From: Deltaproteobacteria bacterium
GTDB lineage: Bacteria > Desulfobacterota_B > Binatia > UBA9968
Direction of reading: 5' to 3'
Length of the DNA stretch: 11,223 nucleotides
Assembly (NCBI GenBank): GCA_016193385.1
Contig: JACPSF010000425.1
Span: 1-11,223, forward strand
Shown one piece after another: positions 1,118-4,807 of this stretch. The number at the start of each line of letters is the position of its first letter. Position 1 is the stretch's first letter. Made by a program: the position numbers and the translations under genes. The notes under the pieces are model-generated. The model was not told the DNA's origin, did no database searches, and saw only the letters and a program-made list of their open reading frames with translations.

Positions 1118-2431
1118 TCAGTACACCTTGCAAGCGTAGTTCATCCGGCCAAACCAGTCCAGGCCCTCGGTAATACCCAATCGGCCGTCCAGTAGAAGCT
1201 CACTCCAAGGAGACACAGACTCTCCCCCATTTATTGTAATGAACTGATGATCTGTAAGTCCGATAACCTTGGCCGGCGCTGGTATCTTGACCTTGCGGTC
1301 CAGACTGCATGTGCTCACAATAGCGTCCGCCTCCGGCAGGTGGAAAGCGAGCGGTGGCTCAGTCCCCTCGCGACCGCCCCACTCCGGTCCCACCATGACC
1401 GTTTTCACGCCCTTCCTTTCGCAGGCCTTCAGCGTTAGCATCACTTCAACCATATTGTTCCCCGATGGGCTAGTTCTTGAAGTGATGGCACCATCGGCCC
1501 CCAATAGCCTTGCCATTTGGGAAGTGACTTCGGCGGTGACATGCTTGCCAAACTCCGATAGAAACCGGGTCCTCTGCAGAATGACACCCAGAAAGTTTAG
1601 TCGTTTCCCGTGCTCTCTATAGAGAGTAAGAAGTATCGAGTTATTCATTAAGCCCCACGTGCTTTCCCTGCTCGAAGTCCCTCTACGCGCATCTCTGGTC
1701 AAAGCCCCGTCAAGGAGCTCGTTGGGATGAATGAAGGTCGGCAGGGAATCCTCAACCGGCAATCCATAGAGCTCTACGCTTGAATGGGGCTGATGCATGC
1801 CAACACGAAATGTTATAAAGCTGAAAATATACACCACGCGGGGGAGGGAAGGATCCACTTTGAACAGCTCGAAAACCTCCGTACTCTCAGGAGTCTTATC
1901 CTTGACAGTCTCAGCCAATCGTTGTGCGACCCTCAACTCAGCCGTCTGAAACGCGCTGTGGGCATCTCGCTCGCTCACGCCATCGATAAGTTTCAGTATC
2001 AAAACAATATTGAGGGTGGATCCCAGTGGGGTCAGCCGCGATGCCGGCCCCCACATATCCACGATTCCCGTATTCCCTGCGGCTGTCCCGCTTGGAATAG
2101 TCGGGCGATAATCTCCTGACGTCATCACCGTGACACCGGATAGTCTATGGGTTCCACCGTCGCCCACAGTTTCGACCGGCCCGAGAATCCCCGGGAAAAC
2201 ACACCCCCGCCCCGACACCTTTACTCGCGGCTCCACGACATCGCGAACATTCACGATCCTTGTCTGCTCGTCGGGGAACACCACGTCCAAGTCGGCCGAT
2301 GCGATTCGCTTGTCATTCAACACGAGTTCTAGCAGCTCTTCCTTATCGAAACTCAGCACTCCATTTGCATAGCCGGTCCGCGTGCCCAGTCGAACATTTC
2401 TCACCGGGAAGTTTGCCAGTTCTAACTTCAT
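1118..2431 (-). CDS. GrdE-like component B alpha/beta proprotein of a glycine/betaine/sarcosine reductase-type system
   Basis: This resembles GrdE (also GrdG/GrdI and, more distantly, PrdA), the non-selenium subunit of the substrate-binding component B in Stickland-type reductases. In those enzymes the proprotein is cleaved to create a pyruvoyl group that holds the amine substrate. Family features are the N-terminal MKLELANFPVRNVRLGTRT, VEPRVKVSGRGCVFPGILGP near residues 67-86, IDGVSERDAH near 150-158, and LYREHGKRLNFLGV near 270-283. The ATG at 2431 is chosen because it has GAGGT upstream and forms a TGATG stop/start overlap with the GrdB-like gene; a TTG one codon earlier is possible. The 437 residues fit the family (about 430). 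The stretch where classical GrdE carries its pyruvoyl-forming cysteine reads RDARRGTSSREST (about 246-258) and has no cysteine. The remaining cysteines are at 77, 337, 375 and 434. The assignment to this superfamily is firm; activity and substrate are open. Confidence 0.83.
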   Translation of the reverse strand: MKLELANFPVRNVRLGTRTGYANGVLSFDKEELLELVLNDKRIASADLDVVFPDEQTRIVNVRDVVEPRVKVSGRGCVFPGILGPVETVGDGGTHRLSGVTVMTSGDYRPTIPSGTAAGNTGIVDMWGPASRLTPLGSTLNIVLILKLIDGVSERDAHSAFQTAELRVAQRLAETVKDKTPESTEVFELFKVDPSLPRVVYIFSFITFRVGMHQPHSSVELYGLPVEDSLPTFIHPNELLDGALTRDARRGTSSRESTWGLMNNSILLTLYREHGKRLNFLGVILQRTRFLSEFGKHVTAEVTSQMARLLGADGAITSRTSPSGNNMVEVMLTLKACERKGVKTVMVGPEWGGREGTEPPLAFHLPEADAIVSTCSLDRKVKIPAPAKVIGLTDHQFITINGGESVSPWSELLLDGRLGITEGLDWFGRMNYACKVY

Positions 2432-3765
2432 CAAAATACCTCAAGGTCCGGCACAAATTCAGTGGGGCCGCTGACATCCGTTTCAAGAGCTCTGAGGGCG
2501 GTCTTGACAATTTCCCGCCGTACCAGTCGGTCACGTTCCTCAGGCAGGTTGGGATCGCCGCAGGGATGCGGGATCTTGACTCCACGGATTATCCGGCTGG
2601 CCTTTGCTTGCTGCGCCACCATAACCATTGCGGTGATGACTCCCGCTGGTATACCTTCTTTCTCGATCTCCTTAGCGATCACAGCGCCGCTGCGAGTGCA
2701 GGTACCTCAGGTGGGGACGACTAACGCGGCGTTTACGCCGGCAGCCTTCAGGTCGCGGGCAATCCGCCTACCTATCCCCATCATATCAGCAACTTTTCCG
2801 CCAACGCCCGGCGATGAATAGAAATAAGGATATAGCCCGGCGAATGCGCCTTCCCTTTCTAATTCCCGGCACGCATCGACCGGAACGCCATAATTAGGAT
2901 TGTCGGCCATGTAGCCGGTAACATATCCAGCGTGAAGGACATCCCACCTTTTATCCTTCATAGAGTTCAAGCTGTCGATCGAGTATTTGCCAAACTGCGT
3001 ATTGTTTATAGATTTCAATCTGTCCGGATTCCCCTCCGACACCACACCACTGGTGGTCACCAGGGCCAGATGGACCTCCTCCGGATTGGTGATTTTGGGA
3101 GCGATAGGGGTCGGCTCAAGAGTTTCATAGACTATCTCGGAAACAAAAGGTTGGCCGGCCAGCTTATCCAGCAACATCTGAACAGCCCTTTCCGCGCCAC
3201 TCTTATCTACGGCCTCCTCGGCTCGAATACCTCGGGGAATGTAACCCTCCTCGGCTGCCGAGCCCAGAGTCAAACCGGCGGCCAGCTTCGAAACGGAGCG
3301 TGCCATTTTTGATAACGCACCCTCCATGCCCACCACGCTCTCTGTCGACGAGAAAAAGAAGACCTTTCCGTCCTTGTACTGCCTATATCCCTCTACGCCC
3401 GGATTTTCGACACTCATCGCACCAACGCAATAGAGCCCGGCCGAAGCGCTCAAAAAGTGACACACCTCCGAACACATAAAACCATATCGGCCCGCTTCAA
3501 AGGCAGGACCGGCCACCACTAGCTCAACCTCGTAGTTCCTGGCAATCTGGAGAACCGATGCTAGTGCCTCTTCGCGATGCTCGCTGAAATAGTTATCGCC
3601 ACAGCACGCGGTAACGACAATATCTGCGGCGTCCCCAAGCAAAACTTTCAGCCGTCGGCCCGGACCGACCGGACCTTCAACGGGAGATACGGGCAAGTTC
3701 GCCTTCTCCTCACCCCCTTTCCCGGCAAAATACTGATTCATAAAATGCATGACGCGAACCTGCAT
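2431..3765 (-). CDS. GrdB-like selenoprotein with in-frame UGA (selenocysteine 353)
   Basis: This is a GrdB/GrdF/GrdH-type component B selenoprotein, which in characterised members attacks the carbon bound to nitrogen of glycine, sarcosine or betaine through a selenol. The frame runs from ATG 3765 to the TGA at 2433-2431 and contains one internal TGA (2709-2707) at codon 353. Read as selenocysteine it gives T-U-G-T-C-T-R-S-G-A, the family UxxC redox motif with C356, in a 444-residue protein of normal family length. Both sides match GrdB: MHFMNQYFAGKGGEEKANLP and EGPVGPGRRLKVLLGD before the TGA, MGIGRRIARDLKAAGVNA just before it, and IPHPCGDPNLPEE with ALRALETDV after it. Further cysteines lie at 54/55, 98, 102 and 113. 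Standard gene calling would truncate it at 352 residues. It follows the first binding-protein gene by 34 nt and shares one base with the GrdE-like gene. Expression would need SelA-D, not in the window. The substrate is unknown. Confidence 0.88.
2679..2709 (-). promoter_or_regulatory. Selenocysteine UGA with SECIS-like hairpin
   Basis: The recoded TGA is at 2709-2707 on the minus strand. Eleven nucleotides after it a 7-bp stem begins: UCGCAGC (2695-2689) pairs with GCUGUGA (2685-2679), including one G-U pair, around a GGC loop (2688-2686). The loop starts 18 nt after the UGA and begins with G. This fits the bacterial SECIS rules as I recall them: a short hairpin just downstream, the apical loop about 16-37 nt from the UGA, and a G among the first loop bases. 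It would be the SelB binding site. The hairpin is read by eye; folding energy was not computed. Confidence 0.6.
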
Positions 3766-3787: not shown

Positions 3788-3801
3788 AGCCGGTTCCGGC
3801 T
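3788..3801 (-). repeat. Intercistronic hairpin between the first binding-protein gene and the GrdB-like gene
   Basis: AGCCGG and CCGGCT flank a 2-nt centre and overlap the stop codon of the upstream solute-binding protein gene. In RNA a 5-bp GC-rich stem with a GAAC loop can form. No U-tract follows, so it is not a terminator. Such hairpins after binding-protein genes can stabilise the upstream message so that more binding protein than enzyme is made; that role is inference here. Confidence 0.4.
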
Positions 3802-4807
3802 ACCTGGCGTATAGGGAATCGATAAATCCCGAAGCCTCGATCTTCTGGACAAAGGAATTGTCGAAGAATTCCTCCGGTCTCGTCTGTTTTGCCCTGGGAT
3901 TCCTGGCCACATCCAGCACGGCCTTCACTTCCGCCGCTGTCATCAAAGGAACCTTGGGGAAAACATCCGCGTACTCCTCGTAGACCGCTTCAAGAATCTG
4001 CCGGTTGTCCGTCTTCAGGAACTTCCCCATTGCCCTCATTGTGGTCTCTTTGTCTTTGCGGATAACGGATATCGCCTCGATATGGGCGCGGACGAATCGA
4101 AGGACCGCCTCGCCGTTTTCCCGGGCCACCTTGCGATGGGCGAGCAGACCCACAAAGAGAAATGGTATCCGCAAGCTGGTAATATCGACAATTTGCTTGA
4201 GACCTGCGGCCCTGGCCTGGATCGTCGTCGGAGCCGACATGATGCCGGCGGCGGCATTGCCTGATTTTACGGCGCTCAGCAACGCGGGCATGGTTCCGGC
4301 ATACATTATTTTTACATCCTTATCAGGGACCAGCCCGGAACGGGTCAAAAGGATACGGGTGGCGTAGTCTGTGGAGGCAGCCGCCTGGGTGGCGGCCACT
4401 ACCTTTCCTTTCAAGTCACCCACCGATTGGATACGGGGGTCGCCGTAAAGGTGGAAAACGAAAGTCGGGGTTCCGGTGGCCACATAGACCAAGTTCGCCC
4501 CCTCCAGATTGGCATCGATGCCCTGGTTTCCGACCAGCCCGATGTCCTCAGTCTCCCCAACCATGGCCTGAACTGAGGTCGTGGCTGCAAGGTAGTTGAG
4601 CTGAACCTCCAGGCCATGCTTGGTAAACAAACCCGCCTCTTGCGCTACCCATATGGGAGCCATCGATCCGCCGATCGCGTTGTAAACCGCACGCAACCGC
4701 AGGGTCTGAGTAGAATCGGCACCCAAACAGATCTTCGAGGCACTCACGAGGGCCGTGGCCAGGACGAAACCAAGGGCCAAGCATGTGGTCTTTTGCGCAC
4801 TGCTCAT
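3800..4807 (-). CDS. NMT1/THI5-like ABC-type solute-binding protein (first gene of the operon)
   Basis: A second periplasmic solute-binding protein of the NMT1/SsuA/TauA class, 335 residues, and the promoter-proximal gene of the Grd-like operon. The ATG at 4807 has a strong purine-rich Shine-Dalgarno sequence (GAGGAGGAGAG) about 7 nt upstream. Residues 1-30 form a Sec signal peptide with a hydrophobic core (LALGFVLATALVSA) and likely cleavage after CLGA. The mature domain shows the family pattern: APIWVAQEAGLFTKHGLEVQ, then VGDLKGKVVAATQAAASTDY, and a C-terminal SFVQKIEASGFIDSLY. It is a clear paralogue of the protein at 108-1115, so the operon carries two copies flanking the reductase subunits. 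The two may differ in specificity. The ligand cannot be inferred from sequence; membrane and ATPase partners are not visible. Confidence 0.87.
   Translation of the reverse strand: MSSAQKTTCLALGFVLATALVSASKICLGADSTQTLRLRAVYNAIGGSMAPIWVAQEAGLFTKHGLEVQLNYLAATTSVQAMVGETEDIGLVGNQGIDANLEGANLVYVATGTPTFVFHLYGDPRIQSVGDLKGKVVAATQAAASTDYATRILLTRSGLVPDKDVKIMYAGTMPALLSAVKSGNAAAGIMSAPTTIQARAAGLKQIVDITSLRIPFLFVGLLAHRKVARENGEAVLRFVRAHIEAISVIRKDKETTMRAMGKFLKTDNRQILEAVYEEYADVFPKVPLMTAAEVKAVLDVARNPRAKQTRPEEFFDNSFVQKIEASGFIDSLYAR

Follow-up and report, generated by a model that had tools for sequence, protein, structure and literature searches.

A GrdB-family selenoprotein gene with an in-frame UGA codon in a Binatia contig, and its putative reductase system

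The stretch of DNA analyzed here (the window) covers positions 1-11,223 of contig JACPSF010000425.1 of a Deltaproteobacteria bacterium placed in Binatia, a poorly known group without cultured members. On the minus strand of the window, positions 3765-2431 make up one gene of the GrdB family rather than two, and the TGA at 2709-2707 that interrupts the gene is, judging from the comparison of homologs, almost certainly a selenocysteine (Sec) codon. The gene has a GrdE-like partner immediately downstream. We propose that the pair is a satellite module of a reductase system whose shared components would be encoded elsewhere in the genome.

A single gene across an in-frame UGA codon

The frame is open from the ATG at 3765 to its own TGA at 2433-2431, with the TGA at 2709-2707 as the sole interruption. 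The initial annotation had reported two minus-strand open reading frames (ORFs) in the same frame parted only by this TGA, and we found exactly this arrangement: an ORF of 352 aa at 3765-2707 is followed by a same-frame stretch down to 2431, within which the GTG-initiated ORF at 2682-2431 corresponds to the 83-aa 'hypothetical' protein. The read-through product of the gene (2431-3765) has 444 residues, with Sec at residue 353 in the context PTUGTCTRSGA, where U is the first letter of the UGTC site; the previously given junction T-U-G-T-C-T-R-S-G-A is thus reproduced.

The claim that family sequence lies on both sides of the TGA was borne out as well. The comparison of the full-length read-through product with the GrdB family, which had been suggested as a check, gave scores of 355.8 bits for PF07355 (cut-off 22) and 393.3 bits for TIGR01918 (cut-off 65.45), both passed over the full length. 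Residues 1-352 alone scored 298.8 bits to TIGR01918, while the tail after the TGA (residues 354-444) alone scored 74.2 bits, in register at model positions 347-429.

If the UGA were a true stop, the product would be the 352-aa protein and the tail would be either the remains of a decaying sequence or a small gene of its own. The lengths of database proteins agree with such a reading. A database search produced 2,119 proteins over the threshold, and the best 120 of them were 347-381 aa long and covered 78-79% of the query. Still, this is the coverage expected for proteins cut at the UGA. The database protein P0002, 95% identical to that of the window, ends one residue before the TGA; the site thus recurs in a second sequence that differs from that of the window. 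The expectation that default annotation would truncate the protein fits these best 120 relatives, P0002 included. A true stop is contradicted by the score and the correct register of the tail, by the codons of the homologs and by a conserved RNA hairpin (both described below), and we consider it very improbable.

We aligned 129 homologs of at least 400 residues, of which 57 formed the window's set (the window, Binatia-type loci and the locus L072) and 72 were other loci from genome_contigs. The genome_contigs rows were drawn from the best 80 of at least 540 confirmed relatives, with distant relatives unsampled. At the position of residue 353, TGA was the codon in all 129 homologs; no further internal TGA occurred in any of them, the last 20 residues aside. 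Other sense codons in the Sec column, named by the initial annotation as potential evidence against its claim, were found in none of the 129. In a search of 77 genomes, the near matches mostly had one TGA; some matches had two TGA codons, an extra TAA or TAG or, in the case of fragments, none, and most of these were outside the alignment.

SECIS hairpin downstream of the UGA codon

Downstream of the UGA codon, RNA folding predicts a selenocysteine insertion sequence (SECIS) hairpin on the minus strand at 2679-2695, with a 7-bp stem (2695-2689 with 2685-2679) and the apical loop GGC (2688-2686). The distance from the UGA codon to the loop is 18 nt, and the energy of the 27-nt segment is -10.9 kcal/mol. 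The bacterial SECIS model as given in PMC13188914 has a loop of 3-9 nt with G in the first two loop positions, a stem of 4-16 bp, a distance of 16-37 nt from the UGA and a minimum free energy of at most -7.5. The hairpin of the window, with its 3-nt loop, 7 bp, 18 nt and -10.9 kcal/mol, lies within every one of these constraints.

The null sequences encoded the same proteins with random synonymous codons. For the window alone, the full six-pair core appeared in the null at a frequency of 0.011, and the energy was reached at a frequency of 0.018. For the 56 unique sequences taken together, the mean number of pairs in the six-pair core was 5.89, compared to 3.29 in 2,000 null sets (standard deviation 0.14; highest value 3.73), and all six pairs were present in 50 of the 56. 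The alanine codon in the 3' arm was GCT in 47 of 50 alanine cases, while GCT made up only 529 of the 3,833 alanine codons in these genes. The remaining three alanine cases had GCA along with TGC replacing AGC in the 5' arm, so that the pair was kept as U-A. In three cases with ACG the pair was likewise retained, with CGT. We conclude that the predicted hairpin is conserved through synonymous codon choice and compensatory changes.

Another possibility is that UGA is read as a sense codon throughout this genome, with no relation to selenocysteine, a reading for which only the open frame speaks. Against it, TGA terminates five of the nine window genes checked, the GrdB-like gene included, and is internal in none of the other eight; the codon is also situated at the known Sec site of the family, with a SECIS present. 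We give this reading next to no weight. The SECIS null test, the TGA usage in the window and the 129-row alignment led us to reject both genome-wide UGA recoding and a true stop.

Selenocysteine machinery in related genomes

A tRNA-Sec gene was sought within the window and not found; the only tRNA gene there is for tRNA-Met. Among the nearest relatives (Candidatus Binatia), most genomes had selA, selB, selD and tRNA-Sec. The nearest genome, G001, had 20% of the window's sampled 31-letter words in common. By hand count, 28 of the 35 genomes G001-G035 had a GrdB match below 1e-20, and SelB was over the cut-off in 24 of these 28. In the set G001-G021 and G026-G039, SelA was over the cut-off in 33 of 35 genomes and SelD in 31 of 35; most of these SelD genes themselves contained a TGA.

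The tRNA-Sec search gave matches over the cut-off in 59 of the 77 genomes, also in 5 of 14 control genomes, and many matches were barely above the cut-off. For these reasons we relied on matches near or above 70 bits, such as those in the nearest genus (76.7 bits in G002 and 78.8 bits in G003). In G008, a genome rated 100% complete, GrdB, GrdA and GrdC gave no match, and SelA, SelB, SelD and tRNA-Sec gave none over the cut-off, which makes it a fitting negative.

Family membership and subfamily models

Taken by itself, the gene adds a new member to an established family. Like GrdB, GrdF and GrdH (selenoprotein B; PF07355, TIGR01918), it shows a full-length match, the Sec column, a SECIS and a partner of the PF09338 family. 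The term 'GrdB-like' used in the initial annotation holds for family membership, but does not extend to glycine reductase, since the curated cut-offs for glycine, sarcosine and betaine reductases were all missed. The scores were 361.0 bits for the glycine reductase model TIGR01917 (equivalog cut-off 602.2), 400.1 and 249.6 bits for the sarcosine reductase models NF040794 (cut-off 800) and NF040793 (cut-off 780), and 359.6 bits for the betaine reductase GrdH model NF040795 (cut-off 775). The fluoroacetate reductase model FarE NF053623 was also missed (110.6 bits, cut-off 675).

The Sec site itself agrees with the 'UxxC site of GrdB-family selenoproteins' of the earlier description, with one refinement. 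The motif in the window is UxxCxxS, as in 45 of the 57 rows of the window's set, and differs from UxxCxxC, which is described as canonical for GrdB, GrdF and GrdH (PMC6778437; PMC13188914) and was present in 66 of the 72 other genome_contigs rows. We also observed a second GrdB group (L025, L027, L028, L029, L195 and L214) with UxxSxxS, in which serine takes the place of the usual resolving cysteine. Elsewhere in the alignment the window has HAGYV where many other rows show HGGYD.

No row among the 57 in the window's set matched the glycine or the sarcosine motif as presented in PMC9751293; of the 72 other rows, 38 matched one of the two. These motifs are strict and the window deviates already at the first residue, so a failure to match them is weak evidence. 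The predicted model of the GrdB-like subunit (mean predicted local distance difference test score 81.3) gave middling fold matches, mostly over residues 1-179 and to many unrelated Rossmann-like proteins, which are uninformative as to the substrate.

Partner subunit and neighboring genes

The partner gene, of the GrdE/GrdG/GrdI type, occupies 1118-2431 on the minus strand, and its ATG at 2431-2429 overlaps the stop of the grdB-like gene by one base. Its product scored 325.9 bits against PF09338 (cut-off 22.2) and lacks cysteine at either of the pyruvoyl-site columns (SGNC..SAC). Neither cysteine was present in any of the 41 GrdE-like rows from Binatia; because L188 and L189 overlap, this count includes one gene or more twice. 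The genome_contigs loci, which include some Binatia, contributed 86 GrdE-like rows: 47 with both cysteines, 34 with neither, one with a single cysteine and four without coverage of the site. The betaine reductase subunit GrdI and FarE are likewise described as having no pyruvoyl cysteines (PMC10838667).

A gene for an NMT1/SsuA-type solute-binding protein lies on the minus strand at 3800-4807, 34 nt upstream of the grdB-like gene. A second one, at 108-1133 on the same strand, runs in its longest frame into the end of the grdE-like gene. Upstream there are ordinary chromosomal genes: the tRNA-Met gene, rpoD and dnaG. For 27 of 35 GrdB genes, solute-binding genes were present at a distance of up to 4 kb, in some cases on the opposite strand. 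Up to 3 kb from grdB/E, such genes occurred at 0.270 per kb (49 in 181.7 kb), compared to 0.060 per kb farther away (16 in 265.8 kb).

GrdA, GrdC and GrdD in related genomes

TGA-containing GrdA was detected in 24 of the 77 genomes, a 25th match (22 bits) being without TGA, and the motif CFVU was seen in GrdA of the loci read. GrdC was over the cut-off in 21 of 35 relatives. GrdD was over the cut-off in none of the 35, with a top score of 28 bits, and sub-cut-off matches appeared also in 7 of 14 control genomes. With GrdD absent at this level, the complete complex of GrdA, GrdC and GrdD was not encountered in the relatives. Most GrdB-bearing relatives share with the Stickland-type GrdABCDE system a GrdA with CFVU and the component C beta subunit GrdC, but differ from it in lacking the component C alpha subunit GrdD over the cut-off and in having several B modules per hub. 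The same three proteins were examined in 26 genomes of other lineages, chosen as 20 non-clostridial or mixed genomes and six canonical controls: GrdC was over the cut-off in 21 and GrdD in 8, and GrdD was absent in 13 of the 21 genomes with GrdC.

GrdA and GrdC were mostly single-copy per genome, while the numbers of GrdB and GrdE-like matches went as high as 20 and 27 in G010, an 8.3-Mb metagenome-assembled genome (MAG) with 9% contamination. There is precedent for several B modules with A and C in common: eight grdB genes are described in Cloacibacillus porcorum MFA1 (PMC10838667). The hub had the gene order grdB-grdE-grdC-grdA in four loci (L190, L191, L197 and L219), and GrdA and GrdC were separate from GrdB at other loci (L192, L196). 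The window's sequence belongs to a 13-sequence clade (support 1.0) with members from G009, G010 and L072, and no GrdC was flagged near the clade members whose neighborhood was examined. L072, a contig of a MAG titled Chloroflexi, carries two GrdB copies, both in this clade and the better one 59% identical to that of the window, which may reflect horizontal transfer or misbinning.

A conserved GrdC cysteine was present in 94 of 95 rows, in which some genes appear twice; the remaining row had a gap. In a profile search this cysteine aligned with that of beta-ketoacyl synthase III, with weak E-values. Because the alignment stops short of the H/Q motif, we make no mechanistic claim from it.

Proposed function and alternatives

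We consider it reasonably probable that the Sec-containing pair is a satellite module for a non-amine substrate, which shares GrdA and GrdC with other modules and transfers the acyl product without formation of acetyl-phosphate. The binding proteins would aid in uptake or sensing of a small acid. The B component would bind this acid, and Sec353 would attack its alpha carbon and expel the leaving group. Since the partner has no pyruvoyl-forming cysteine, the substrate is probably neither glycine nor sarcosine, and the group expelled is unlikely to be a primary or secondary amine; it could be trimethylamine, as in a betaine-type reaction, or some other group whose departure does not depend on a Schiff base. 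B components are described as forming a carboxymethyl-selenoether, which is passed to proteins A and C (PMC10838667). The Se-carboxymethyl group would move to the Sec residue of GrdA, whose gene would lie elsewhere, then to the active-site cysteine of a GrdC. As no GrdD over the cut-off was found in relatives, the acyl product would more likely pass to coenzyme A (CoA) or be released than be made into acetyl-phosphate. This transfer to CoA or water is the weakest step of the proposed mechanism, and the substrate and the product of the pair are inferred.

Several observations weigh against this proposal. The selA, selB, selC and selD genes of the window organism, its GrdA and GrdC and its lack of GrdD are all presumed from relatives. 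Among the 28 genomes of the order that carry GrdB, four MAGs of approximately 210 to 790 contigs (G009, G013, G022 and G024) had no SelB over the cut-off; G022 had a partial SelB, G009 had SelA over the cut-off, and G013 had a strong tRNA-Sec and no SelA match. The nearest genome, G001, 71% complete, had no tRNA-Sec over the cut-off; all relatives without SelB or tRNA-Sec over the cut-off are incomplete or fragmented MAGs. The loop-adjacent pair of the SECIS core was absent in 6 of the 56 sequences. A diverged GrdD scoring under the cut-off, or another acyl-transfer protein, may be present in the relatives. In Desulforhabdus (L104), GrdE is of the pyruvoyl type, and GrdC is present but GrdD is not; hence, the losses of the pyruvoyl site and of GrdD do not always go together. 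A sequence search of solved structures at an E-value of 0.001 gave no match for the GrdB-like or the GrdE-like subunit. No permease gene was recognized in the window, which stops 107 bases beyond the second binding protein.

The pair could also be a B component of the ordinary type for glycine, sarcosine or betaine, merely diverged and feeding acetyl-phosphate formation; such a component would have the same domain pair and Sec site. A betaine enzyme would fit in part, as its GrdI is also described as lacking pyruvoyl cysteines (PMC10838667). However, the scores for glycine, sarcosine and betaine reductases (361, 400 and 360 bits) fall short of the cut-offs (602, 800 and 775), the strict PMC9751293 motifs do not occur in the window's set, and GrdD is not seen over the cut-off in the relatives. 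We regard an ordinary reductase as rather unlikely, with an appreciable chance nonetheless.

The other alternative is a reductive dehalogenase-like B component acting on a haloacid, akin to FarB/FarE for fluoroacetate. The Cloacibacillus FarB/FarE, according to PMC10838667, are likewise without CxxC and pyruvoyl cysteines. Yet the FarE score is low (110.6 bits against 675), and the genes flanking the pair in the window, which ends soon after, are binding proteins rather than the antiporter and radical-SAM genes of far. We find this alternative improbable. As a whole, GrdH/GrdI and FarB/FarE resemble the window's pair in the absence of pyruvoyl cysteines from the partner, as reported for GrdI and FarE, and differ from it in the low model scores of the window and in the transport genes, which are of the NMT1 binding type in the window and OpuD or an antiporter in the described systems (PMC10838667).

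Implications of the satellite-module proposal

Public gene calls drop the last fifth of these proteins. Beyond this, we put forward, tentatively and as something we rather doubt, a broader generalization of the satellite-module proposal. In Binatota and various other non-clostridial bacteria, the glycine-reductase machinery might run without GrdD, with several pyruvoyl-free Sec B modules, many of them beside binding proteins, funneling varied alpha-substituted small acids to one GrdA/GrdC hub, where a thiolase-like GrdC would pass the acyl group to CoA. If this were true, a fermentative ATP-making complex would have become a broad carbon-scavenging pathway with acyl-CoA as its product, in organisms that possess an aerobic respiratory chain such as has been described for the phylum Binatota (PMC8262859). 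GrdC without GrdD, combined with pyruvoyl-free B components, would constitute a second selenium-dependent reductase branch, apart from the biochemically known Stickland enzymes, and Binatota may use for carbon uptake a selenium chemistry that is familiar mainly from anaerobes.

In the main text of the Binatota genome paper (PMC8262859), the terms 'selen', 'glycine reductase', 'betaine' and 'sarcosine' are absent. In the literature searched, whose coverage mostly excluded subscription papers and preprints, we found no description of this variant arrangement of several modules without GrdD and without pyruvoyl. A survey of selenoproteins in groundwater MAGs, mentioned in PMC13188914, may already list such genes.

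Other observations in related loci

The GrdC sequences showed E[LM]HNP in Binatia and in most GrdD-free genomes, and E[LM]Q in most GrdD-bearing ones (L190, L197, L250-L269). Exceptions were L257, with H and with GrdD, and L259, L264 and L265, with Q and without GrdD. In L191 and L218, genes for hydantoinase/caprolactamase-like subunits (551.7 bits, curated cut-off 1,000) adjoin the GrdA/GrdC hub, which is a possible hint at the substrate.

A second type of GrdA/GrdC pair was observed in L222-L226, with ECFVU as in the Clostridia rows, no adjoining GrdB and a macrodomain gene beside it. Finally, G049, G061 and others of the class (L030, L031) had distant matches that contain a TGA and are confined to the C-terminal half; our guess is that these represent a PrdB-like selenoprotein family of the class.

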